IMG/VR virus record: IMGVR_UViG_3300010885_013533
Span: 1-64,000 of that record
Source: a virus
Reading direction: 5' to 3' (one strand)
Length of the DNA: 64,000 bases
The notes below the pieces were generated by a model that was not told where the DNA came from, made no database searches, and was given only the letters and a program-made list of their open reading frames with translations. The translations under genes and the position numbers were made by a program. Shown in pieces: positions 2,423 to 31,412 of this stretch. Positions within the stretch are counted from its first letter, which is position 1. Each line of letters begins with the position of its first letter.

Positions 2423-4251
2423 TCAAGCAGCCTTATCTTGAACAGGTGCCTCTTCTGTGGGCTTGTACAAGAATTCCCCAATCTTCATGCTCTTGTTCAG
2501 GAACTCTGTGGTGGCTGCCTGGATCGCCTGCACATCATCTGATGTGACACTTTCCTTTAGCTTGACCATAGCTTCTTGAACTTCTGTCTTGAGATCTTCA
2601 GGCAGCTTTTCATCATGTTCCTCAAGCTGCTTCTCAGTGCTTGCCAACATTTGATCGGCCTGGTTACGAGCTTCTGCAAGTGCCTTGCGTGCAGCATCTG
2701 CTTCTGCATTTGCCTCAGCAGATTTGATCATGTCTGCAATCTCTGCATCAGTCAGTCCACCGTTAGCCTTGATGCTGATCTCCTGCTTCTTGTTGGTGGC
2801 CTGATCAGTTGCACTCACAGTCACAATTCCATTAGAATCGATATCAAAGCTTACAAGGATTTGTGGCACACCGCGTGGAGCAGGTGCAATACCAGTGAGT
2901 TCAAACTGACCCAAACTCTTGTTGTCTGCTGCCATTGGCCGCTCGCCCTGGAACACCTTGATTGTGACAGCAGGCTGATTGTTTTCAGCAGTGCTGAACA
3001 CCTGTTCCTTGCGGGTGGGAATGGTGCTGTTCTTTTAATCAGACGAGTGAACACGCCGCCGAGAGTTTCAATTCCCAAACTGAGTGGTGTGACATCCAGC
3101 AGCAACACATCCTTCACATCGCCCTGCAACACACCTGCCTGCACAGCAGCACCCATGGCCACCACTTCATCAGGGTTAACACTGCGATTGGGCTCTTTGC
3201 CAAAGAAGTCCTTGATAGCCTGTTGTACCACAGGAATACGGGTGGTACCACCCACCAAGATGACTTCCTCTACCTGACTGATATCCAGTTGTGCATCACG
3301 CAAAGCCACCTTGCAAGGCTCAATCAGACGTTTGACCAGATCATCAGTCATACGTTCAAATTGGCTGCGTGTGATGCGGGTCACCAAATGCTTGGGACCG
3401 GATGCATCTGCTGTAATGTAGGGCAGATTGATTTCTGTGTCCTGTGCACTACTCAGTTCAATCTTGGCCTTTTCAGCAGCTTCCTTCACACGCTGCATGG
3501 CCATCTTGTCTGTGGTGAGGTCCATGTGTTCTGTTTTGCGGAATTCCGCCACAATGTGCTCCATGATGCGAGCATCAAAGTCTGAACCACCCAAGTGTGT
3601 GTCACCATTTGTGCTCAGCACTTCAAACACACCGTCTGCAATTTCCAGCACGCTCACATCATGCGTGCCTCCCCCTGCGTCCACGACAACCACTTTACCA
3701 CCGTTACGCTTGTCTAAGCCATAGGCCAGAGCAGCAGCAGTGGGTTCGTTAATGATGCGCAGAACTTCCAGACCTGCAATTGTGCCTGCATCCTTGGTGG
3801 CTTGACGCTTACTGTCTGAGAAGTATGCAGGCACTGTGACAATAGCTTGTGTGACCTTCTTGCCCAGATATGCTTCAGCAGTGTTTTTCATTTTGATCAG
3901 CACTTGAGCTGAAATCTCTTGTGGGCTATATTTTTTACCAGCCACTTCCACCCATGCATCGCCATTGTCTGCGGCCACAATCTTGTAAGGACTGGATGCA
4001 ACATCCTTTTGGATTACTTCATCGTCAAAACGTCTGCCAATCAGTCGCTTGGCTTCAAAAATGGTGTTAACAGGATTTGTTACCGCTTGGCGGCGGGCAG
4101 CTTGACCCACCAGTTGTTCGTCACCCTTGAATGCCACCACACTGGGCGTGGTGCGAGCACCTTCAGCATTCTCAAGCACTTTGGGTTGACCATTTTCCAT
4201 GATGGCCACACATGAATTTGTAGTCCCAAGATCTATCGCAATGATAGTCAT
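2423..4251 (-). CDS. dnaK: Hsp70 chaperone DnaK, interrupted by a one-base frameshift
   Basis: An ATP-driven Hsp70 chaperone. The start is ATG 4251, ten bases after AGGAG, which gives [13 protein letters not shown]. The nucleotide-binding domain is complete ([37 protein letters not shown]), followed by the [11 protein letters not shown] linker region. After LIKR (about residue 405) the frame breaks. One extra A in the A-tract at 3033-3036 would restore ...[16 protein letters not shown] and the rest of the substrate-binding domain, for about 609 aa, slightly shorter than E. coli DnaK. The second phosphate motif reads DAGGGTHD instead of DLGGGTFD. A DnaK is unusual in a phage. The break could be a homopolymer sequencing error, real inactivation, or -1 slippage. 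Confidence 0.9.
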
Positions 4252-4313
4252 AATATGTTCTCCTTTTAAAAGCAAGATGGATTTTTGATGGCCCATTAAG
4301 GCACCGTCTACAA

Positions 4314-5773: not shown

Positions 5774-6382
5774 CTACCATCTGGCATTATCCTTATACCC
5801 TGCTCGGATCAGTTCTGCTGCCGCCTTGAGAGCTCCTGCTTTGCCTTGACCCAGATACTTGTGCATTATGTCTGCAACTGGTTGTGGTGCATCGTAGCCC
5901 AGCGACACAGATTGAGCAGTCAAACATCTCAACAAGGGTAGTTTGTGGCTGTAGGTTAAACTCAATTTTTTCACTCCATGTTCAGGCACACCTTGTAAAC
6001 TGACTAATTTATTGTAATAACATAAAAAGTCACCCCCCACATGTGTGGGTGCATGAATAAGATTGGTAAGTTTGTTGGCAAACACATGGAAGTTGTTGCC
6101 CACATGTGTGGGAGCACCTTCTAAACTCTGCAGATTGTTATACTGGACCCAGAAATCTCCGCGCACCCATTCAGGAGCCCCTAACAAAGATTCCAGACCA
6201 CATTCTTCGCCAAAAAAGTGACCTGTCACCTTGCCAAATTTCACAGGCAGTTGAGGCAGGCTTTTCACCTTTACACCCACGCTGCCGGTCACATTCACTG
6301 TGCCTGTATCATCTATGTGGACCACACCGTCTGTCTCAAAATGCTTCCTGAATAGCTGCTTGATCTGTTTTGTATCTACCAT
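5774..6382 (-). CDS. LRR-like repeat protein, paralogue 9 of the array (last gene)
   Basis: 202 aa. The N-terminal MVDTKQIKQLF head and a G-x-VNVTGSV strand are followed by about four 21-residue repeats (LxSLxGAPxxVGxxF pattern), then LPLLR and the conserved tail ending GYKDNARW. Its ATG is nested in the last codons of the upstream paralogue (AGATGGTAG encodes Arg-Trp-stop and contains the ATG), so translation is probably coupled. Function is unknown. The repeats look like an LRR or beta-solenoid binding surface. It is the promoter-distal end of the operon that begins with the AAA+ ATPase. Confidence 0.85.
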   Translation of the reverse strand: MVDTKQIKQLFRKHFETDGVVHIDDTGTVNVTGSVGVKVKSLPQLPVKFGKVTGHFFGEECGLESLLGAPEWVRGDFWVQYNNLQSLEGAPTHVGNNFHVFANKLTNLIHAPTHVGGDFLCYYNKLVSLQGVPEHGVKKLSLTYSHKLPLLRCLTAQSVSLGYDAPQPVADIMHKYLGQGKAGALKAAAELIRAGYKDNARW

Positions 6383-6918
6383 CTGGCGTTTTCCTTGTAT
6401 CCTGCTTTGATCAATTCAGCTGCTGCTTTGAGGGCACCCATTTTGTCCTGACCCACATATTTGTCCATTATTTCTTTGACAGGATCAGGTGCATGACTAA
6501 TTAGCACTCTATTATATATGACTAATCGCAACAAGGGTAAATGAGCATTATATGTGCACCAAAATTCCTCTCCCACATGGTCAGGAGCACCTTCCAAGCT
6601 GCTAAGGGGACTATCAGTGCACCAAAAATGACTCCCCACGTATGTAGGAGCCCCTTTTAAGTTGATGAGTTTGTTATGTTCACATAAAAAATATCCACCC
6701 ACACTGGTGGGGGATCCCACCAGTGTGGTGAGACTAGCACCATTGCACCAAAAATTACCTGAAACTGTGCCAAATTGTATGGGCAACTGGCTGACTTTTT
6801 TCGTTAAATCCACAGCACCTTTTACATTCACTATGCCTTTAGATGAGATTGTAACCTTGCCATAAACTTTGAAATTAGATTCCAGCAATGTTTTAATTTG
6901 TTCTTTATCTGTCACCAT
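6376..6918 (-). CDS. LRR-like repeat protein, paralogue 8
   Basis: 180 aa, one of the shortest members, with about three repeats (LTTLVGSP, LINLKGAP, LSSLEGAP). The head is MVTDKEQIKTLLESNF and the tail ends GYKENARW. Both ends use the seven-base overlap with neighbouring paralogues (6376-6382 and 6912-6918). Compared with neighbours it has lost one or two repeat units, so repeat number varies between copies. Function is unknown; a binding or adaptor role is inferred only from the repeat type. Confidence 0.85.
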   Translation of the reverse strand: MVTDKEQIKTLLESNFKVYGKVTISSKGIVNVKGAVDLTKKVSQLPIQFGTVSGNFWCNGASLTTLVGSPTSVGGYFLCEHNKLINLKGAPTYVGSHFWCTDSPLSSLEGAPDHVGEEFWCTYNAHLPLLRLVIYNRVLISHAPDPVKEIMDKYVGQDKMGALKAAAELIKAGYKENARW

Positions 6919-7589
6919 CTGGCATTGTCCTTGTATCCAGCTCGGATCAATTCAGCTGCTGCTTTGAGGGCACCCACTTTACCTTCTCCTGCGTATTTGT
7001 CTAAGATGTGATTCACCTTGTCCCCTCCATCCCTAAGATACACACTGGGATACATGAGGGTTCTCAACACAGGTAAATGTGGGTTGTATGTGCATTTGAA
7101 TTCTCTACCCACATGAGCAGGTGCTCCTTCCAAGCTGGTGAGATTTGGGCCATTCATCCATGAAAAAATCCCTCCCACATAATTGGGGGCGCCCTCCAAG
7201 CTGGTGAGTAATTCACCGCCCAGACCACCACCCCAAAAATTGCCCCCCACATGAGCAGGAGCACCCACCAAGCTCTCAAGTTTATTACCGCCGCATGAAA
7301 AACTACCTGCCACATGATCAGGAGCCCCTTGCAAAGTGGTTAGTGTGTTTTCCCAACAGGTAAAGTCTCCTCCCACACGACGGGGCGAACCTATTAAGGT
7401 GGTCAAAGATTTCTCATGGCACGCAAAAGCTTCTGACACATTACCAAATTGCACAGGGAACTGTTTGACCTTCTTCTTTAGGAAGACTTGCCCCTTAACA
7501 TCCACCACGCCATCAGGTTGTATGGTCACATTACCCAGTATAGTGAAGTACTTCTTGAGTAAGGCCTTAATTTCTTCGACATCTACCAT
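6912..7589 (-). CDS. LRR-like repeat protein, paralogue 7
   Basis: 225 aa with about five repeats, one of them expanded by a Gly-rich insertion (GGGLGGEL). The head MVDVEEIKALLKKYF and the strand VVDVKGQV match paralogues 6, 8 and 9, and the tail ends GYKDNARW. Cys residues recur at the same position of several repeats (FTC, FSC, FKC). The start is nested in the stop region of paralogue 6. The repeat expansion suggests recombination between units. Confidence 0.85.
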   Translation of the reverse strand: MVDVEEIKALLKKYFTILGNVTIQPDGVVDVKGQVFLKKKVKQFPVQFGNVSEAFACHEKSLTTLIGSPRRVGGDFTCWENTLTTLQGAPDHVAGSFSCGGNKLESLVGAPAHVGGNFWGGGLGGELLTSLEGAPNYVGGIFSWMNGPNLTSLEGAPAHVGREFKCTYNPHLPVLRTLMYPSVYLRDGGDKVNHILDKYAGEGKVGALKAAAELIRAGYKDNARW

Positions 7590-8185
7590 CTGGCGTTTTC
7601 CTTGTATCCAGCTCGGATCAATTCAGCTGCTGCCTTTATGGCCCCCACTTTGCCCTGACCCACATAGGTGTCCATTATTTGTTTGGCTTGTGCAGGAGCA
7701 TGGCCAATTGCCACATTATTATACATGCTCAATCGCAGCAAAGGAAGATGTGCATTATAAGTGCAAAAAAACGTGCCACCCACATAAGCAGGTGCCCCTT
7801 GCAAGCTGGTGAGTTTATTGGTATTACACCAAAAATTACCCCCCACATGATCAGGTGCACCTTCCAAAGTGCTCAGGTTATTTTCACTACAGTCAAAGTC
7901 GTAAAGCACATAACGAGGAGCGCCCTGCAAGCTGGTGAGTTGATTATTATTGCAAATAAAACTTCCATCCACATGATCAGGTGATCCCACCAAGCTGGCG
8001 AGTGCATTAAAATTACAGTCAAAATCTCCGTGAACAATACCAAAAGACACAGGCAGTTCACTTATTTGATTGGCTAAACCCACATCGCCATACACATTCA
8101 CCACACCCTCATCTGTGATTTTGACGGAGCCAGTGATTTCAAAATGTTCTTTTAATAAAGCCTTAACTTGTTTTATGGTTACCAT
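7583..8185 (-). CDS. LRR-like repeat protein, paralogue 6
   Basis: 200 aa with four regular repeats (LASLVGSP, LTSLQGAP, LSTLEGAP, LTSLQGAP), each with F-x-C-x-x-N after the GAP segment. This makes it the cleanest example of the 21-residue consensus. The head is MVTIKQVKALLKEHF and the tail ends GYKENARW. Seven-base overlaps join it to paralogues 5 and 7. No catalytic motif is visible. Confidence 0.85.
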   Translation of the reverse strand: MVTIKQVKALLKEHFEITGSVKITDEGVVNVYGDVGLANQISELPVSFGIVHGDFDCNFNALASLVGSPDHVDGSFICNNNQLTSLQGAPRYVLYDFDCSENNLSTLEGAPDHVGGNFWCNTNKLTSLQGAPAYVGGTFFCTYNAHLPLLRLSMYNNVAIGHAPAQAKQIMDTYVGQGKVGAIKAAAELIRAGYKENARW

Positions 8186-8886
8186 CTGGCATTCGCCTTG
8201 TATCCTGCTCTCACCAATTCAGCAGCACACTTGAGTTGACCCGTCCTGCCTTGCTTGGTATATTTGTTCAATATTTGTTCAATGGGTAAAAGTGTCAATC
8301 TGTTGGGGAAATCATTAGTGGTCTCTAGTTCAATCTTTTCCACACTCAATAATCCCAGTAGTGGTAGTGTGGCACCATAACTTATCACCACAGTGCCTAT
8401 GTGATCAGGTGTATATTTAAATGATTCCAAGGGATTGTCATGTGCATAAAGTTGTTCACATGGAGGAGCATGAAACAGATCGGTGAGCATGTTGTGGCTG
8501 CAATTCAATATACCCACAGCGGGACAATGTGCCAAACTTGTGATGTTATTATAGCTACAATCCAAATCATCATGCACTTTTGTGGGTGCATGAGCAAGAC
8601 TGGTCAATAAGTTTTTGCTACAGTTGAAGTCTCCAATCACCTCTGTGGGTGCGCCTTCCAGTGTGTTCAATCGGCTCTTGGTGAGTATAAAACTGCCACC
8701 CACTATACCAAACTTAACGGGCAACATGCCATTTGGTGCAGGTTTACGCATGTACAAATTATTATTGGGCACTTGAACGATGCCATCTGGCTGGATCAAA
8801 AATTCATAATCATTAAGGTGTTCTGTAGTCCAAATATCTGAAAAGTAGGTTTCGAACAATTGTTTTACTTGCTTTATATCTACCAT
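8179..8886 (-). CDS. LRR-like repeat protein, paralogue 5 (divergent)
   Basis: 235 aa, the longest member. The repeats are degenerate (LTSLAHAP, ITSLAHCP, LTDLFHAP, LESFKYTP), with AHAP replacing EGAP, and the head carries an insertion before the first strand. The tail is still recognisable (GYKANARW). Divergence in the repeats with a conserved tail fits repeats that choose targets and a tail with a shared role. Coupled by overlap at both ends. Confidence 0.82.
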   Translation of the reverse strand: MVDIKQVKQLFETYFSDIWTTEHLNDYEFLIQPDGIVQVPNNNLYMRKPAPNGMLPVKFGIVGGSFILTKSRLNTLEGAPTEVIGDFNCSKNLLTSLAHAPTKVHDDLDCSYNNITSLAHCPAVGILNCSHNMLTDLFHAPPCEQLYAHDNPLESFKYTPDHIGTVVISYGATLPLLGLLSVEKIELETTNDFPNRLTLLPIEQILNKYTKQGRTGQLKCAAELVRAGYKANARW

Positions 8887-9551
8887 CTGGCGTTACCCTT
8901 GAATCCAGCCTTGATCATAGCCACAGCAGCTTTCAGTGCGCCTGCTTTGCCTTGACCTATATAAGTATCAAAGATTTCAGTCAACTTTTTATTTTCGCCA
9001 TTCACATGAGGGTATCTCAAACTCACATGCAGCGTATGTTTGTGCTGTGTCAATTTGAGCAGAGGCAGATTTGGTGGTGCACTCATGGTCACATAGCTAG
9101 CGTTAAGGGGTATGCCATCCACACTTGTGAGGCCTGTGCCCATTTGTTCTGTACCTATAAAATGCCCTGAGAAATCTGTGGGTGCATGTTCAAAATTACT
9201 CAGTAAATTATAGGAACAATTGTATGTACCTCCTATACTGCTAGCATTACCCACACTTTTTGGCCCACCCTCCAAACTGGTCAGGTAGTTGTTTTGGCAT
9301 AAAAAGCTGCCCATCACAGTGTGAGGGGCATTGTGCAAGGATTCCAGTTCACATTCATGTGCCTCATAGGTGCCTGTGACCAAACCCATTTTGAAGGGTA
9401 TGGTTTTTTTAAATTTGGGCTTGATGGAAAAAGCTTTCACATTCACTGCATGTGTTTCTTCGTCCACCCAAACTCGCATCAGTTGCACAGTGTGATAACT
9501 GGCATAAAACCACTCTGTTAGTTCTTTCTTCTCTGCTTCAGTTACGGCCAT
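8880..9551 (-). CDS. LRR-like repeat protein, paralogue 4 (type-2 head)
   Basis: 223 aa. The head differs from the MV-type members: MAVTEAEKKELTEWFY, then a VWVDEETH strand, as in paralogues 1 and 2. Repeats LESLHNAP, LTSLEGGP and LSNFEHAP follow, and the tail ends GFKGNARW. The ATG lies six bases after the upstream stop rather than nested in it, and a TGATCAATC sequence fills the gap. Two head types on one repeat/tail body suggest domain shuffling. Confidence 0.84.
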   Translation of the reverse strand: MAVTEAEKKELTEWFYASYHTVQLMRVWVDEETHAVNVKAFSIKPKFKKTIPFKMGLVTGTYEAHECELESLHNAPHTVMGSFLCQNNYLTSLEGGPKSVGNASSIGGTYNCSYNLLSNFEHAPTDFSGHFIGTEQMGTGLTSVDGIPLNASYVTMSAPPNLPLLKLTQHKHTLHVSLRYPHVNGENKKLTEIFDTYIGQGKAGALKAAVAMIKAGFKGNARW

Positions 9552-9557
9552 GATTGA

Positions 9558-10103
9558 TCACCATTTCGCATTATCTTTGTATCCTGCACGGATCAGTTCT
9601 GCTGCGGCTTTGATGGCGCCGGGTTTACCTTCTCCTGCGTATTTGTCGATTATTTTTTCCACTTGTTCGGGGGCCCACAAAATATTCACACTATCATACA
9701 TGGTCAATCGTAACAGGGGTAGGTGGGCATCATATAAGCACAAAAATAAATCCCCCACATGATCTGGTGCACCCTCCAAACTTGTGAGTTTGTTATGGGA
9801 GCATGCAAAACGACCCCCCACATGACGGGGAGCACCCACCAAATTTGGGAGATGGTTATCATAGCACATAAAATTGCCATCCACATGATCAGGTGCACCC
9901 TGTAAGCTGGTGAGTTCATTGTCGCTGCAATGAAAATCACCAGAAACATGGCCAAATTGCACCGGTAACTGTTTGATCCAAGTCTTTTTCTTTAATTTTA
10001 CATCACCTTGCACATCCACCACGCCATTAGGCCGCATAGTCACCTGGCCCAGGACATCGAAGTATTGCTTAAGTAACGCCTTCACTTGTGATGTGTTCAC
10101 CAT
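9558..10103 (-). CDS. LRR-like repeat protein, paralogue 3
   Basis: 181 aa with type-1 head MVNTSQVKALLKQYF and about three repeats (LTSLQGAP, LPNLVGAP, LTSLEGAP). The tail ends GYKDNAKW, with Lys instead of Arg before Trp. Even so, the codon pair AAA-TGG keeps the nested ATG of the overlapping type. The start lies inside the end of paralogue 2 (10097-10103). Confidence 0.85.
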   Translation of the reverse strand: MVNTSQVKALLKQYFDVLGQVTMRPNGVVDVQGDVKLKKKTWIKQLPVQFGHVSGDFHCSDNELTSLQGAPDHVDGNFMCYDNHLPNLVGAPRHVGGRFACSHNKLTSLEGAPDHVGDLFLCLYDAHLPLLRLTMYDSVNILWAPEQVEKIIDKYAGEGKPGAIKAAAELIRAGYKDNAKW

Positions 10104-10756
10104 TTCGCATTATCCTTATACCCAGCTCGGATCATTTCCACAGCACACTTAATGGCACCTGGCTTGCCTGTTCCTGCATATTTTTCCAGGATTGCAGTCA
10201 CAGGATGTTCCTTGCCTGACCCTGCATATCTCACCATGACTCGTTTTTGGTTTAACAGTTTTAACATGGGTAAGTGTGCATGATAGGTTATATCCACCTG
10301 CCTTGCCTCTGATGGTAAACCATCCACACTCATCAGTTCCTCATTCATTTCATTGACAGCTATGAAGTACCCTGTGAACCGTTGTGGTGCACCTGTAAAG
10401 TTTATCAAATTGTTGTTGCTGCATGCGTATGTGCCTCCGCCCATTTCTGTCCTGCCCACATCTTGTGGTCCACCCTCTAAACTGGTCAACAAATTACCAT
10501 AACAACCAAAGTTACCTGTGACTGTGTGTGGTGCATTTTTCAAACTTGTGAGATTTTTGAATGCACACATAAAATGCCCTTGTACAAGACCAAACTTGAC
10601 AGGTATTTCACCCATGGTCATGAGAGTGATCATATGCGCCTTCACACTCAGTTCATGTGTCACATCATCTATCCACACATCCTGTAGATCCTTGGTGCTG
10701 AAATTGCGATGAAATTTATCAATCAGTTGCGTTTTTTGTGTTTCAGTTAAGGCCAT
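10097..10756 (-). CDS. LRR-like repeat protein, paralogue 2 (type-2 head)
   Basis: 219 aa with head MALTETQKTQLIDKFH and a VWIDDVTHELSVKA strand, close to paralogue 4. The repeats LTSLKNAP and LTSLEGGP are followed by a MGGGTYAC insertion like that in paralogue 4. The tail ends GYKDNAKW. Start six bases after the stop of paralogue 1. The shared insertion shows paralogues 2 and 4 are sister copies. Confidence 0.84.
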   Translation of the reverse strand: MALTETQKTQLIDKFHRNFSTKDLQDVWIDDVTHELSVKAHMITLMTMGEIPVKFGLVQGHFMCAFKNLTSLKNAPHTVTGNFGCYGNLLTSLEGGPQDVGRTEMGGGTYACSNNNLINFTGAPQRFTGYFIAVNEMNEELMSVDGLPSEARQVDITYHAHLPMLKLLNQKRVMVRYAGSGKEHPVTAILEKYAGTGKPGAIKCAVEMIRAGYKDNAKW

Positions 10757-10762
10757 TTATCA

Positions 10763-11413
10763 TCACCATCTGGCATTATCTTTGTATCCAGCCCTGATCA
10801 TCTCCATGGCTGCTTTTAAGGCTCCTGCTTTGCCCTGGTTGCGATATTTCATCAAAATGCCCTCTATGGGATGAACACCATCATATGTTTCAGTAAAAAC
10901 ATGAGGCTCGTGATTTATAAGTTTTAACATGGGTAGATCTTTCTGATAACTCAGTTCCACAGCCCTGCAATGCACTGGTAACCCATCCACATTTTCCAGA
11001 TGGTATTGTTTTTTAGACCCTTGATTAAGATAACTGAATGATCCTGTGAAATCCGCAGGAGCACCCTCGAAGTTTGTTAAAGGATTAATACCACACACAT
11101 ACCAAGCACCTTCCACATGTTGCGGACCACCTTTTAATGTGGTCAAGTTATTGTTAACGCACCAAAAACTTCCTGTCACAGTGTGAGGGGCATTTTCTAA
11201 AGAGGTTAATTCACATGAGATACAATAAAAATGACCCTCCACACGACCCAATTTCATAGGTATGTGCCCTTCGGCTGTTAGTTCCACAGTCTCTGCTGTA
11301 ATATTAATAGCCTGAGTGGTTGCATCCACACTCACTTCTGTAAGTTTGGTTAACTTAAAGTGTTGTTTGACTAATTTGATCAAATCTGCCTGTGCTTTTT
11401 TAGACATCTGCAT
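10763..11413 (-). CDS. LRR-like repeat protein, paralogue 1 (first of array)
   Basis: 216 aa, the promoter-proximal copy directly after the vWA gene (six bases apart). Type-2-like head (MSKKAQADLIKLVKQHF) with the start at ATG 11413 or the second Met at 11407. Repeats LTSLENAP, LTTLKGGP, LTNFEGAP and LENVDGLP; the tail ends GYKDNARW. Direct linkage to the AAA+/vWA genes is the main evidence that the array works with them. Confidence 0.84.
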   Translation of the reverse strand: MQMSKKAQADLIKLVKQHFKLTKLTEVSVDATTQAINITAETVELTAEGHIPMKLGRVEGHFYCISCELTSLENAPHTVTGSFWCVNNNLTTLKGGPQHVEGAWYVCGINPLTNFEGAPADFTGSFSYLNQGSKKQYHLENVDGLPVHCRAVELSYQKDLPMLKLINHEPHVFTETYDGVHPIEGILMKYRNQGKAGALKAAMEMIRAGYKDNARW

Positions 11414-20344: not shown

Positions 20345-21058
20345 TCAGTCTTGCCGATTTCCTAGCAGACTGAGCAGCATCTGAAAGATGTTCACAAAGT
20401 TCAAATACAAGCTGAGAGCGCCAAATAGTGCACTCTTTTCTGGTGAATCAAAACCATACACTTCACCGTTTGACAGATAATCATTCTTGAGATTCTGACA
20501 GTCATATGCTGTGAGTCCTGTGAAGATCACAACACCCAGTACACTCACAATGAATGCAAGCATGCTGCTGGCCAGGAATATGTTCACCACACTTGCAATC
20601 AGAATACCAATCAGGCCCATGATCAGGAACGTGCCCATGTTGGTCAAATCTCGTTTAGTGGTGTAGCCTATTGCACTAGCTGACGCAAATGTTGCGGCAG
20701 TGATAAAAAATGTGCTTGCAATACTCACACCCGTATAGGTGACAAATATGCTGCCCAAGCTGAGACCCATGCTCACAGCAAACAACCAGAACAACCAGTT
20801 TGCTGTGCCATAGCTGAGCTTGTGAATACCAAAACTGAGCACTAACACAAATGCCAGCGGAATAAGTGCAAATATGATGGGTAATAAACCTGTCTTAAGT
20901 GCCCCTCCCAAAAGTGCGGCTGTGAACCAGGCTGTGATGCCACTCACAACTAATGCAGCAGTCATGCGATTGAAAATGCTCATCATGAAGGTTCTGAGCC
21001 CTTGATCTAGGGCGCTCACAGATTGCGTGTGCAGTACTGAAGTAGTATATTGGTCCAT
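20345..21058 (-). CDS. Bax inhibitor-1 / YccA-family membrane protein
   Basis: 237 aa from ATG 21058 (MDQYTTSV), with AAAGGG upstream; a longer frame starts at 21091. Seven hydrophobic segments are visible after a 25-residue cytoplasmic head. The family signature at the end is present: TAYDCQ near 190 and LYLNFVNIFQMLL near the C-terminus. Bacterial relatives include YccA, which binds and restrains the FtsH protease. A phage copy might protect unstable phage proteins, as lambda CIII does, or act on calcium or pH leakage. The gene lies directly downstream of the tmRNA and probably shares its promoter. Confidence 0.9.
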   Translation of the reverse strand: MDQYTTSVLHTQSVSALDQGLRTFMMSIFNRMTAALVVSGITAWFTAALLGGALKTGLLPIIFALIPLAFVLVLSFGIHKLSYGTANWLFWLFAVSMGLSLGSIFVTYTGVSIASTFFITAATFASASAIGYTTKRDLTNMGTFLIMGLIGILIASVVNIFLASSMLAFIVSVLGVVIFTGLTAYDCQNLKNDYLSNGEVYGFDSPEKSALFGALSLYLNFVNIFQMLLSLLGNRQD

Positions 21059-21099
21059 GTGTATAACCCTTTCTGAGTTTAATGCCACCACTTCTGTTT

Positions 21100-21300
21100 C
21101 TAGGTGGGTGGCCCACCCAATGGAATTACGCTGCTAGCAACGCATTCTCAAATGCAACATTAGTGTTTGCATTTACAGTTTTCTTGCTGTAAGGTAGCTT
21201 GCGCACCAACACCTACTCTGACCCTTACTATTGCCAATCAAAATCTGCGTCGTCCCCATATGGTGGAGACGCTCGGTGCTGCCCCGAGGTCTTGGTCAAT
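21100..21300 (-). ncRNA. ssrA: Circularly permuted (two-piece) tmRNA
   Basis: The acceptor piece comes first: a CTCGG-7-base loop-CCGAG T-arm, CGTCTCC, and ACCA ending at 21261. After only three bases (TAT) the coding piece begins at 21257 with GGGGACG, which pairs with CGTCTCC over seven base pairs with a G.U at position 3, the alanine identity pair. A tag frame at 21126-21170 starts at the resume codon GCA and encodes ANTNVAFENALLAA-stop, a typical degradation tag ending in LAA/AA. A hairpin (TGGGTGG/CCACCCA) follows. tmRNA rescues stalled ribosomes and tags the nascent chain. The gene order shows the permuted form known from alphaproteobacteria. Outer ends are approximate. Confidence 0.9.
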
Positions 21301-21330
21301 TTATTTGATTAGTATCCACAGTGTTACTCA

Positions 21331-21359
21331 TATTTAGCTATAATAAAAGGGTATGTCAA
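21331..21359 (-). promoter_or_regulatory. Sigma-70 promoter TTGACA-N17-TAAATA for the tmRNA
   Basis: A perfect -35 TTGACA, 17-base spacer and TAAATA -10 on the minus strand, about 35 bases before the tmRNA acceptor piece. The -10 also reads GCTAAATA, so the phage late sigma could use it too. Confidence 0.7.
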
Positions 21360-21385
21360 GCCTACTCAGAATGAATCAATTGAGA

Positions 21386-24071: not shown

Positions 24072-25157
24072 TTAAATTGTGCATGCATCACATTCAGCTT
24101 GGGCGGCAGTTTCATCCACATCGTCCTGGATCATCTTGTCTGTATCTAGTTCACCTTGTAAATCATTTGTGTTGAAATAATACGCCGTTTTGATGCCCCA
24201 CTTGTAGCTCATGAGCATGTGACGCAACAGCTCGCTCATGGGCAGCTGACGATCTGGATAGAACTGTGGATTATAGCTTGTATTAGTACTGATGGTTTGA
24301 TCCATCCAACGCTGCAACACAGCACAAATCTTTAGGTAACCCTCAGGCGACTTCTGATCCCACAAAAGTTCATATCGGTTCTTGAGACGGCGATATTCAG
24401 GCACCACCTGCTTCATGACACCATCCTTACTTTGTTTGACTGAAATAAGTGCACGAGGGGGTTCAATTCCATTTGTGCTGTTACTGATCAAACTGCTAGC
24501 CTCACTGGGCATACAAGCCAATAATGTGGTGTTTCTGACGCCGTGTGTGCGTAGGTCGTCTCTTAGCCTATGCCATGGCAGACGTTCATGGTAGCCCACC
24601 AATTCGTCAGTTTCCTGTTTGCGAGTGTCAATAGGTACGATGCCTTGACCATACTTGCTCAGCTTGCTGCCTTCAGGAGCACCTTTCTCTATGGCCAAAT
24701 CCACACTGGCTCTGATCATATAGTAACTCCAAGCTTCTGCATACTCATCCAGAGTGCTCAGTGCACTGTCATCGCTGTATTTGAAACCCATTTTGGCTAT
24801 CCAATAGGCCAGATTGGTAATACCGATTCCCAAAGGTCTAAACAACGTGGTGTGTGCTTGAGCAGCAGCCAATGGATAGTCTTGATAGTCCAATAGTGCA
24901 TCTAATGCTCTCACAGCCAGCTTGCAGGGCTTTTCAAAGTCCTTGGGCTCACGAATCTTGCCCCAGTTGATGGCAGCCAGTGTACACAGTGCCACGGCAG
25001 GATGGGTGTCGTCTATGCTCTGCAAGGGCATGGTGGGCAGTGTGATTTCTGCACAGTTGTGAACTACCAGGTTGTTGGCCACAAAGGCAGAAGTTTCTGG
25101 CACAGTGATGTCATACACATCAGTGGGTGCAACTTGAATTTTACGGATTTTAATCAT
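24072..25157 (-). CDS. nrdA: Split intein C-part fused to NrdA C-terminal half
   Basis: 361 aa. Residues 1-34 are a C-intein: VYDITVPETSAFVANN (block F) ending VVHN, followed by Cys35. From Cys35 the chain continues NrdA (CAEITLPT..., LCTLAAINWG) to the end, where CDAC provides the C-terminal redox Cys pair. The +1 Cys is the NrdA thiyl-radical Cys (E. coli Cys439), and Asn/Glu of the active site lie either side of the junction. The enzyme is therefore only active after trans-splicing with the product of 26133-27785. SD AGAGG lies nine bases upstream, and ATGA overlaps the endonuclease gene. Spliced NrdA would be about 769 aa, the usual length. Confidence 0.95.
   Translation of the reverse strand: MIKIRKIQVAPTDVYDITVPETSAFVANNLVVHNCAEITLPTMPLQSIDDTHPAVALCTLAAINWGKIREPKDFEKPCKLAVRALDALLDYQDYPLAAAQAHTTLFRPLGIGITNLAYWIAKMGFKYSDDSALSTLDEYAEAWSYYMIRASVDLAIEKGAPEGSKLSKYGQGIVPIDTRKQETDELVGYHERLPWHRLRDDLRTHGVRNTTLLACMPSEASSLISNSTNGIEPPRALISVKQSKDGVMKQVVPEYRRLKNRYELLWDQKSPEGYLKICAVLQRWMDQTISTNTSYNPQFYPDRQLPMSELLRHMLMSYKWGIKTAYYFNTNDLQGELDTDKMIQDDVDETAAQAECDACTI
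25056..25157 (-). other. C-terminal split intein (IntC), 34 aa
   Basis: Intein blocks F and G: VYDITVPETSAF and VVHN, ending in the required Asn before Cys+1. The short, directly initiated IntC is typical of phage split inteins. Confidence 0.92.
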
Positions 25158-26098
25158 AATGTTCTGCCTCTCTTATATGAAGGATTATTACTAATGAATT
25201 CATTTAATGTGTTTGAAGGAATCATAAGGCTATGGTGTCCGTCTGTAATCCACGATTTACTACTGGCTGCACCACGGAGTTTATCTCTGTGTTGCAACGA
25301 TTTATATTGGGAGTCATGAACAACAGACTGTTCACGCTCTTGATTGTATCTTTTGATAAGAGATTCATAGGATCCAAAGTTATTGACTATCCATACCTGT
25401 GATACCTTCTTGAACTCTGAGAATTCTTTTTTAAGATTGCTCACAAACAACTTGGGGGAGAAATAAAGTGCATCTGTTATACTTTTACCCACGCAATCAT
25501 AAACACGCTGTATTCTCTCAGGAGTCATGCTCTTATAGTTGTTGTTATTCACTCCATCTTGACGCTTGCCATTGTTATGGCCAGACACTCCCTTTGAGTG
25601 ATGAATCCACTCACCACTCACTACTTTGGGATGATCCACAGCCACACTACCTATAGATTGGCGTGTGATAGCATCCACAACTGGCATCTTACCTTTACGA
25701 GCTTTACTGATGCTGCTGATTCCTATCTGTCTCAAGTGTGCCATAGAGTTAAGGAACGCTTGATCAACTTCGGACAGATTGATCTGCCTTTTGTGATTTC
25801 CACCTGCCTTGGTGAAGAAGAATTGAAGAGCTGAGCCTGTTGAGTACCCATATCTGGAGTCCTTGTGCATCTCATACAAGTAATAGTGCGCCATGAGATG
25901 CTCCTGAAATGTTAACAGCACAAGGTTGTCCGGGTGGTTGGGATCTCCAGACAGATGGCCTATAGGCCCTTTGCGCTTGCGTTGTTTGAACATAAATTCG
26001 GGCACAATGTGATGCCATTCGTAATAAGCTCCTTGACCTTTTTGGCGATTCTGTTGTTTGGCTTGATCTATGATCTGTTTATACAGTTGTTGATACAC
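25154..26098 (-). CDS. HNH homing endonuclease between the NrdA halves
   Basis: 314 aa from GTG 26098, chosen because AAAGGAG lies seven bases upstream (a longer frame reaches 26146). An HNH core is visible: YYEWHHIVPEF, then HPDNLVLLTFQEHLMAHYYL. The C-terminal half has modules (SSISKARKGKMP; TDGHHSLM) like the DNA-binding repeats of phage-borne HNH/GIY endonucleases. Placed exactly where the intein is split, it is the likely agent of homing into intein-less nrdA. A CATAAATA element lies about 20 bases upstream of the GTG, so it can be expressed separately. Ends overlap nrdA-C by four bases. Confidence 0.85.
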   Translation of the reverse strand: MYQQLYKQIIDQAKQQNRQKGQGAYYEWHHIVPEFMFKQRKRKGPIGHLSGDPNHPDNLVLLTFQEHLMAHYYLYEMHKDSRYGYSTGSALQFFFTKAGGNHKRQINLSEVDQAFLNSMAHLRQIGISSISKARKGKMPVVDAITRQSIGSVAVDHPKVVSGEWIHHSKGVSGHNNGKRQDGVNNNNYKSMTPERIQRVYDCVGKSITDALYFSPKLFVSNLKKEFSEFKKVSQVWIVNNFGSYESLIKRYNQEREQSVVHDSQYKSLQHRDKLRGAASSKSWITDGHHSLMIPSNTLNEFISNNPSYKRGRTL

Positions 26099-26132
26099 AC
26101 AAAGTCTCCTTTGCGTGTATTTATGTAAGTAA

Positions 26133-27785
26133 TCAAATCTCAGCACATAACACGTCAGTTTCTGCCAAATCTTTGGCCATCACCCATCCTCTGTTCTGAG
26201 TCCAGATTTGATGATCTGGAGTGCAACGGATCACGTTACCCTTCTCATCCTCAATCTCCATGAGCTCAGTCACTGTTGCAGTCTTGGCAGCAGCACTCAC
26301 TTCACTCCACACAAACTCTCCAGTCTCTGTATTGTAGCTGCGCACCTTCACATTGTTCATACCTCCATATGACCAGGCTTCCACAAAGCTCGCCAAGTCA
26401 ATGGTCTTCTCAACACCATCTGTGTGGATAATCTTAAGTTGAGAATCACCTGTGAGGCACAGGTTGCTTTGTCTAATAGGGGCCAAGTGTTCCACATATG
26501 CTCCATGAGTGTTCACATGGTCCACATTCATCCAGTAAACTCTGCCTGTGTTTTTGCGTTCGCTCATGAACAGTGTGAACAGATCCACAGCTTTCATGGT
26601 CTTTTTACGGATCAGGGGATCAGCCTCATACTGTTCATACAACCTCTTGAACTCGTCCTGGTCCGCAAAGAAGGCATCATACATGCCAGGCACATCAGAT
26701 GGTGAGAACAATGTGAGGTTGCCACCTGTGAGCAGTCGCTCATATGCCAGTTTGTTGAACTGCACTGCATAATCCATATGACGTGCACGATTGTCATCAG
26801 TGCCCTTGTTGTTCTTGAGCACCACCAGATCTTCAAACTGCAAGTGCCAGAAAGGGAAGTAAGCTGTGGCTGCACCTCCGCGCACACCCCCCTGATTGCA
26901 GCTTTTCACACTTGCTTGTAGCAGCTTAACAAAGGGCACTACCCCTGTGTGATAAGCGTCTCCGCCTCTGATAGGGCTATTGATTGCCCTGATACGTCCA
27001 ATGTTTAATCCAATACCAGCCTTGCGGCTCACGTAGCGAACCACAGCATGGCTCACAGCACTGATACTGTCCAGACTGTCGTCTGCCTCAATTAACACAC
27101 ATGAACTGAATTGCTTTTGTGGTGTTCGCACACCTGCCATGATGGGAGTGGGCAAACTGATGTCATGTTGACTAATTGCATCGTAGAACTCCTTGACCCA
27201 CTTGAGGCGGGTGTGGTGAGGATAGTCATGGAACAGAGTGGCTGCAATCAACATGAGAGCCATCTGTGGGGTCTCAAACAACTGACCAGTCACACGATTC
27301 TTGACCAGATATTTGCCTCTCCATTGTTCCATGGCAGCATAGGTTAGGTCCAAATCTCTTTCGTGATCAATATATGTGTCCAGGACTGCAAACTCTTGCT
27401 CTGTGTACCAGGTCAACAGTTCAGACGTATAAAACCCTGTGTTGATCACAGTTTGCACATGTGCATGCAGAGTGGGCATGTCATATGCACCATAAGCTTC
27501 TTTTCGGATATGATGATTGATCAGTCTGGCAGCCACAAACTGGTAGTTGGGAGTTTCCAGTTCAATCAAATCCGCAGCAGCCTTGATCAAAGTCTCCTGA
27601 ATGTCCACAGTCTTGATGCCATTATAAAACTGAAGCTGGCTGCGAATCTCTAATTCACTTGCACTTACCCCACTCAAGCCTTCTGTTGCCCACAACACTT
27701 GCTGATGTATTTTTTCGATGTTCAATAGTTCTTGGGTGTTATCTCTTTTTGAGACAAAGACGGGGTCCCCGGGCCGTGAAGTCAT
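26133..27785 (-). CDS. nrdA: NrdA N-terminal half fused to split intein N-part
   Basis: 550 aa. Residues 1-95 are an ATP-cone (overall activity regulation by ATP/dATP). The catalytic barrel begins with TPQKQFSSCVL, and GLNIGRIRA and NQGGVRGGAATAYFPFWH are standard class Ia motifs. NrdA stops at IRQSNL (residue 442); residues 443-550 are an N-intein starting CLTGDS (block A) with block B IRCTPDHQIWT. The AAAGGA ribosome site lies ahead of ATG 27785. Inactive alone; needs trans-splicing to the 24072-25157 product. Confidence 0.95.
   Translation of the reverse strand: MTSRPGDPVFVSKRDNTQELLNIEKIHQQVLWATEGLSGVSASELEIRSQLQFYNGIKTVDIQETLIKAAADLIELETPNYQFVAARLINHHIRKEAYGAYDMPTLHAHVQTVINTGFYTSELLTWYTEQEFAVLDTYIDHERDLDLTYAAMEQWRGKYLVKNRVTGQLFETPQMALMLIAATLFHDYPHHTRLKWVKEFYDAISQHDISLPTPIMAGVRTPQKQFSSCVLIEADDSLDSISAVSHAVVRYVSRKAGIGLNIGRIRAINSPIRGGDAYHTGVVPFVKLLQASVKSCNQGGVRGGAATAYFPFWHLQFEDLVVLKNNKGTDDNRARHMDYAVQFNKLAYERLLTGGNLTLFSPSDVPGMYDAFFADQDEFKRLYEQYEADPLIRKKTMKAVDLFTLFMSERKNTGRVYWMNVDHVNTHGAYVEHLAPIRQSNLCLTGDSQLKIIHTDGVEKTIDLASFVEAWSYGGMNNVKVRSYNTETGEFVWSEVSAAAKTATVTELMEIEDEKGNVIRCTPDHQIWTQNRGWVMAKDLAETDVLCAEI
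26136..26459 (-). other. N-terminal split intein (IntN), 108 aa
   Basis: Begins with Cys1 (CLTGDS) right after NrdA IRQSNL. Contains TPDHQIW (block B Thr and His) and ends at the gene's stop, with no endonuclease domain of its own. Confidence 0.92.
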
Positions 27786-30836: not shown

Positions 30837-31412
30837 TCACCATCGCGCATTTTCCTTGTATCCTGCTCGGATCAGTTCTGCCGCTGCCTTGATAGCACCC
30901 ACTTTACCCTCACCTGCATACTTGTTGAGTATGCCTTTCACTTTAAACATATCACCGTATTTGGCATTAGTGAAGGATAAATCACCTCTTAAGTCAATCT
31001 CTTTGGCCACCAGGCTTCTCAACAAAGGCAGTTTGGGATTCCAGGACACAAAAAACACGCCTTTGAGTGTTTCAGGCAGCCCTTCCAGACTGGTCAGTTG
31101 ATTGTTACCAACACAGTAAAAGTCTGTGCCCACATGCTCAGGTGCTCCCAATAATGATGTGAGCAGATTGCCTGAACAATAATACCTCTCGCCCACTTTT
31201 TTGGGCGAGCCCACCAAGGTCTCCAACATCTTGCTGCTGCATACAAAGTCGCCACTCACCTTACCAAATGTGACACCCAGTTGTTTGACTTGCCTGATCA
31301 AGCTCACATCACCTGTCACGTCCACCACTCCAGTCACAGGATGAATCTTGTATGTGCCTGTGATTCTGAATCGTTTCTTTAATCTGGTTTCAATGTCAGT
31401 GACATTCACCAT
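30837..31412 (-). CDS. LRR-like repeat protein, isolated tenth copy
   Basis: 191 aa with the type-1 head MVNVTDIETRLKKRF, three repeats (LETLVGSP, LTSLLGAP, LTSLEGLP) and the tail ending GYKENARW. It lies 19 kb from the nine-gene array, inside a virion operon. Its ATG is nested in the AGA-TGG-stop end of the fibre-like gene upstream, exactly as within the array, so it looks like a cassette moved to a site offering the same junction. Confidence 0.85.
   Translation of the reverse strand: MVNVTDIETRLKKRFRITGTYKIHPVTGVVDVTGDVSLIRQVKQLGVTFGKVSGDFVCSSKMLETLVGSPKKVGERYYCSGNLLTSLLGAPEHVGTDFYCVGNNQLTSLEGLPETLKGVFFVSWNPKLPLLRSLVAKEIDLRGDLSFTNAKYGDMFKVKGILNKYAGEGKVGAIKAAAELIRAGYKENARW

Follow-up and report, generated by a model that had tools for sequence, protein, structure and literature searches.

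The DNA analyzed here, a 64-kb stretch referred to below as the window, comes from a virus record that is a 65.7-kb linear contig. On its minus strand, at approximately 21325-21081, Rfam models and a reading of the sequence together identify a complete circularly permuted tmRNA gene. A promoter-like element, TTGACA-N17-TAAATA (21331..21359, minus strand), lies 5′ of the gene, and a gene for a Bax-inhibitor-1 (BI-1)/YccA family membrane protein (20345..21058, minus strand; Pfam PF01027, E 1.8e-50) lies directly downstream of it and upstream of topoisomerase II. The BI-1 gene starts with ATG at 21058, and a GTG at 21091 is likewise open. The topoisomerase II is of the two-gene T4 type, and the region also encodes ribonucleotide reductase, a DnaB-like helicase, primase, tail and baseplate proteins, HSP70, and glutaredoxin. 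The large subunit of the ribonucleotide reductase (24072-27785, minus strand) is divided: its N part (26133-27785) ends in an intein-like N segment, its C part (24072-25157, minus strand) begins with an intein C segment, and the two parts are separated by an ORF of 330 aa (25154-26146) in which an HNH-like motif occurs; the arrangement resembles a split intein whose halves flank an endonuclease gene. Approximately nine neighboring, similar-looking proteins of 180-235 aa with a motif like LPVKFGxVxGDFxC (5774-11413 and 30837-31412, minus strand) apparently constitute a tandem-duplicated family. The Pfam match of the HSP70/DnaK-like protein (481 aa; 2851-4296, minus strand) ends at profile position 423 of 599, so that the part that binds substrate seems to be missing or divergent.

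When the 64-kb window was compared with all 4227 Rfam families, RF04321 (tmRNA_permuted) matched over its full model length at 21325-21126 (minus strand; 78.4 bits, E 2.5e-13; curated threshold 47) and RF01849 (alpha_tmRNA) matched at 21363-21081 (minus strand; 50.5 bits, E 3.8e-11). The alpha match is marginal against its curated threshold of 50, and alpha is the best clade-specific model for this RNA. ARAGORN detected neither a tRNA nor a tmRNA in the 64-kb window. Calibrated Rfam E-values, together with the covariation found in relatives, exclude a chance match. An earlier note on this DNA had proposed a phage-encoded circularly permuted tmRNA at 21095-21360 and a search with the Rfam permuted models as a check; the significant matches to RF04321 and RF01849 bear the proposal out and assign the gene to the alpha type. 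The strand, on which the note was silent, is minus, and the gene extends somewhat beyond 21095 at its 3′ limit, since the RF01849 match ends at 21081.

Along the minus strand, the acceptor piece precedes the coding piece in one transcript unit (CTCCACCA-TAT-GGGGACG), which is the order of elements described in the note. The acceptor piece (21261..21325), covered by the RF04321 match, carries the 5′ strands of the H2 helices, the T arm CTCGG-GGCAGCA-CCGAG (21288-21272; T stem 5/5 pairs), the acceptor 3′ strand CGTCTCC (21271-21265), the discriminator A (21264), and the encoded CCA (21263-21261). After the intervening segment TAT (21258..21260), the coding piece runs to the stop (21126..21257, likewise within the RF04321 match) and comprises the acceptor 5′ strand GGGGACG (21257-21251), H2 and outer helix strands, including the H2 strand TTGGCAAT (21237-21230; RF04321 match and covariation), the PK1 region (about 21211-21173), and the tag. 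A 3′ extension of the coding piece (21081..21125), to the end of which the RF01849 match extends, contains the conserved motif AACAGAA (21098-21092). The seven-base acceptor pairing with G3.U70 and the encoded CCA, both previously noticed, were confirmed: GGGGACG and CGTCTCC form 7/7 pairs, and G3.U70 occurs in 5/5 sequences compared (alignment A1). The T loop, GGCAGCA, is one base away from the usual alpha GGCAGTA. T loops of two kinds occur in phage tmRNAs that are close relatives, the canonical TTCRANT-like form (L383, L385, L127, and L130) and the alpha form GGCRGYR (window, L386, and L387), and the L383 gene (1501-1700) does not encode its CCA. The tag frame (21126..21170, minus strand) opens at a GCA resume codon, closes at a TAA stop, and translates as ANTNVAFENALLAA, in agreement with the tag and stop recognized earlier. 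Homologous tags are present in relatives (ANDNVAFENVAQAA in L383, AANDNVAFEDIRLAA in L387, and ANDNVVIEDIRLAA in L385), with the common core ANDNVAFEN..., and the frame is open and AA-terminal in all relatives compared. The C-terminal ends are LLAA in the window and QAA, RLAA, and VAA in relatives.

Relatives were recruited via the topoisomerase and via the BI-1 gene. In seven phage lineages (the window, G017/L383, G018/L386, G020/L387, G021/L385, L127, and L129-L133), a permuted tmRNA adjoins or lies near BI-1 on the same strand; BI-1 is directly downstream in four relatives, and one opposite-strand gene intervenes in L127 and the L129-L133 group. L127 and L130 share with the window the order of tape-measure-like gene, tmRNA, BI-1, and topoisomerase II large subunit. 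The pattern of the promoter-like element is also conserved, with TTGAC[ACT]-N16-19-AT-rich hexamer found 50-88 bases upstream of the acceptor strand in 11 sequences (that of the window and ten from relatives or phages). A generic sigma-70 scan of the window did not score the element because its second hexamer is imperfect. At least 150 stretches of viral contigs carry a BI-1 homologue. A sister group (e.g., L122 and L124) has a BI-1 gene, ~58% identical, and no tmRNA match in the available record parts, indicating that gain or loss of the tmRNA occurred within the clade. L122 and L124 are relatives with a closer topoisomerase, and the lack of a tmRNA match in the available parts of these two shows the tmRNA to be dispensable.

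Covariation was assessed in two alignments with the spacers omitted, using 27 pairs from the structure of the window (acceptor stem, T stem, and two H2 segments). In alignment A1 (five sequences), 84.6% of cells pair, both sides have changed in 19 of the 27 pairs, and none of 500 shuffles reached the covariation score. In alignment A3 (six closer relatives), 87.7% of cells pair, with both sides changed in 18/27 pairs and 0/500 shuffles reaching the score; sliding the partners by 1-3 columns as a control reduced pairing to 33-47%. These figures are lowered by the L385 row, which is one base out of register in the acceptor and T stem. Conserved pairing in homologues, on which the earlier note had made its proposal depend, was therefore found, and the H2 helices that join the pieces (AUUG-a-CCAA/UUGGCAAU and UACU-a-AUC/GGU-cag-AGUA) are kept by covariation. 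All six aligned relatives have AACAGAA unchanged close to the 3′ end. The common position, promoter-like element, tag, AACAGAA, and 27 covarying pairs in relatives indicate that the tmRNA is under selection.

In the PK1 region, the best H-type pseudoknot in the window was no better than shuffles (z 0.01) in an automated search that gave no signal even where the relatives' knots are visible. By eye, a weak GCU/AGC pseudoknot is an option in the window and pseudoknots are clearer in L127, L383, and Phosso; two plain hairpins, GGU-GC-GCAA-GC-U-ACC and UUACAG/CUGUAA, are favored in the window. The stretch GGUGCGCAAGCUACCUUA is identical in the window and L387 and is thus conserved. Folding the RNA as a whole gave an unexceptional free energy (z -1.2) and a structure that lacks H2; cofolding the acceptor and coding pieces was also uninformative (z -1.4). 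An unclear PK1, a low alpha-model score, the ARAGORN miss, and a T loop of GGCAGCA instead of GGCAGTA are what one might see if a captured host ssrA had survived by chance as an inactive or decaying relic. Such a history is very unlikely, given that the stems are all intact with compensatory changes, the tag frame is open and homologous to the tags of relatives, the promoter-like element is conserved, and the locus itself is conserved in several diverged phages. With the exception of a clear PK1, the sequence shows every required part of a tmRNA to be present and conserved, and the window tmRNA is genuine and probably functional.

The three-base spacer between the pieces had been called unusual, and this claim was not supported. 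Alpha-type genes with spacers of 1-6 bases were sought across 85,000 prokaryotic species, and 20 loci with spacers of 2-3 bases (14 host and 6 viral, among the matches listed) were checked with Rfam; all 20 are permuted tmRNA genes. The 14 host loci are alphaproteobacterial, two of them with exactly TAT, and their confirmation makes the short spacer an ordinary form in Alphaproteobacteria. Since spacers of 2-6 bases are common in host genes (many alphaproteobacterial tmRNA genes have them, among the matches listed), the spacer was dropped as an oddity. L386 (AAC) shares the three-base length, as do ten confirmed host loci from Alphaproteobacteria. Within the phage clade, the spacer measures 3 bases in the window and L386, 5 in L130, 6 in L383, 76 in L127 and L387 (clearly the same insert), and 101 in L385, indicating that its length varies freely; in more remote phages it reaches 46 (L145) and 410 bases (Phosso). 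This wide range among orthologous phage tmRNAs seems to be unreported in the available literature. The exact DNA pattern of a three-base spacer with the window acceptor was absent from every other viral contig searched, which reflects sequence divergence and not spacer length. The activity that separates the pieces would thus tolerate a loop of just seven bases (ACCA-TAT) closing the acceptor stem.

Among named phages, two jumbo phages come closest to the window when topoisomerase II large subunits are compared: the Sinorhizobium phage Phosso (469 kb; 55%) and the Agrobacterium phage Atu_ph07 (490 kb; 50%). The window is therefore likely to be part of a far larger genome, that of a phage of Alphaproteobacteria. 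The earlier note had also envisaged capture from a host lineage with two-piece tmRNA. An alphaproteobacterial origin fits, as the best clade model is alpha and the two closest phages with names have Sinorhizobium and Agrobacterium as hosts, but the two-piece form is no surprise in a phage. Phage tmRNAs are indeed mostly of the one-piece kind, and yet 53 of 402 tmRNA-bearing phages had been counted with two-piece tmRNAs by 2022, 50 of the 53 from marine or aquatic samples, and an alphaproteobacterial origin was argued for one of these tmRNAs (PMC9004378). A tmRNA has also been reported in the Sinorhizobium jumbo phage AP-J-162, and none in Atu_ph07 (PMC11242549). The window gene is therefore a further example of something reported already. 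A blastn search of INPHARED phages with the window tmRNA and two other viral tmRNAs gave no match, as expected for a short, diverged RNA.

The gene resembles the alphaproteobacterial permuted tmRNA (RF01849/RF04321) in its piece order, G3.U70, encoded CCA, short spacer, GGCRGYA-type T loop, UAAAUGCAAAC before and into the tag, and AACAGAA in the 3′ extension. It differs in being phage-borne, in its low alpha score (50.5), in its unclear PK1, and in its tag, ANTNVAFENALLAA. Methylophage Melnitz and other marine phages likewise encode a permuted alpha-type tmRNA (PMC9004378), but the context in Melnitz is a glutamine riboswitch and curli genes, whereas the window tmRNA neighbors BI-1/YccA. AP-J-162 is, like the carrier of the window tmRNA, a large T4-like alphaproteobacterial phage, and has a reported tmRNA (PMC11242549). 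The same type of phage is represented by Phosso (PV764938.1), which has one permuted tmRNA and a topoisomerase II large subunit 55% identical to that of the window; unlike in the window, its tmRNA lies elsewhere in the genome and has the 410-base spacer. The Phosso gene (L139; 349596-350198, minus strand; 113.3 bits) is unannotated, and its spacer holds a CAGCCCCAT-like copy (AAGCCCCATCATAACAACATG); as this copy is complementary to the CATGTTGTTATGATGGGGCT that opens the coding piece, an alternative pairing with the acceptor strand is possible. ARAGORN misses the phage permuted tmRNAs L002, L047, L127, L139, L145, and that of the window, and L002, L127, L139, L145, and the window gene were found by Rfam models; counts of phage tmRNAs based on ARAGORN are therefore too low. 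The window tmRNA is a diverged, ARAGORN-invisible addition to the two-piece tmRNAs of phages.

Our main reading, to which we assign a probability of about 0.9, is that the locus holds a functional ssrA gene, circularly permuted as in Alphaproteobacteria and carried by a large T4-like phage. According to the literature (PMC11915505; PMC9004378) and general knowledge, the precursor of a two-piece tmRNA is cut by tRNA-processing enzymes and both RNAs remain paired; the molecule receives alanine via G3.U70, enters the ribosome with SmpB, adds its tag, and ends at UAA. In the window, the conserved sequence suggests that a single precursor would be transcribed from its own promoter-like element. By comparison with known permuted tmRNAs, RNase P would cut just before GGGGACG, and a 3′ activity would trim the TAT that follows CCA. 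The two pieces would be held together by the H2 helices and the acceptor stem, as the covariation supports, host AlaRS would charge the tmRNA via G3.U70, and host SmpB and EF-Tu would bring it to stalled ribosomes, where addition of ANTNVAFENALLAA with its -LAA end would direct the tagged proteins to Clp-type proteases of the host. A search for SmpB genes was negative for the record, its relatives, and two complete genomes (Phosso and Atu_ph07), so that host SmpB must serve. The RNA most likely acts as a spare tmRNA that rescues ribosomes during infection via host SmpB, AlaRS, RNase P, and proteases, and the likely benefit would be to sustain rescue as damaged mRNAs accumulate and the host gene may be lost.

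A need to draw on host SmpB, given the lack of its gene in the record and in the complete Phosso genome, would also suit a decoy that occupies SmpB and thereby blocks host trans-translation, a role suggested for the tmRNA of mycobacteriophage DS6A, which has no tag and whose inhibitory action is described in tmRNA reviews. Both phages encode the tRNA-like domain of a tmRNA, but the window tmRNA has what DS6A lacks, a full conserved tag frame with a stop and an AA end, and we regard the decoy as highly improbable. The tmRNA could also be chiefly a re-targeting device, its own tag steering proteins to other proteases than the host tag does, or at another rate, as the LLAA end of the tag and the QAA, RLAA, and VAA ends of relatives might suggest. 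The adjoining BI-1/YccA family gene would be in keeping with this, as YccA of E. coli is a modulator of FtsH. However, the core ANDNVAFEN is similar to host tags such as ANDN..., and gene order by itself shows no functional link; re-targeting is accordingly an unlikely explanation.

A working tmRNA for ribosome rescue remains the preferred reading. The recurring tmRNA-BI-1 neighborhood seems to be unreported, with no report joining phage, Bax inhibitor, and YccA in the literature searched. It is conceivable, if quite unlikely, that the two genes form a proteostasis pair, in which the tmRNA would free ribosomes and tag their products while BI-1/YccA would tune the FtsH-type breakdown of membrane proteins that are jammed or tagged; if so, the phage would control tagging and destruction alike. 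The orthologous phage tmRNAs with spacers of 3, 5-6, 76, and 101 bases offer a natural series for the study of permuted tmRNA cleavage, and the stable tmRNA-BI-1 neighborhood provides a testable lead on why phages carry tmRNA genes.
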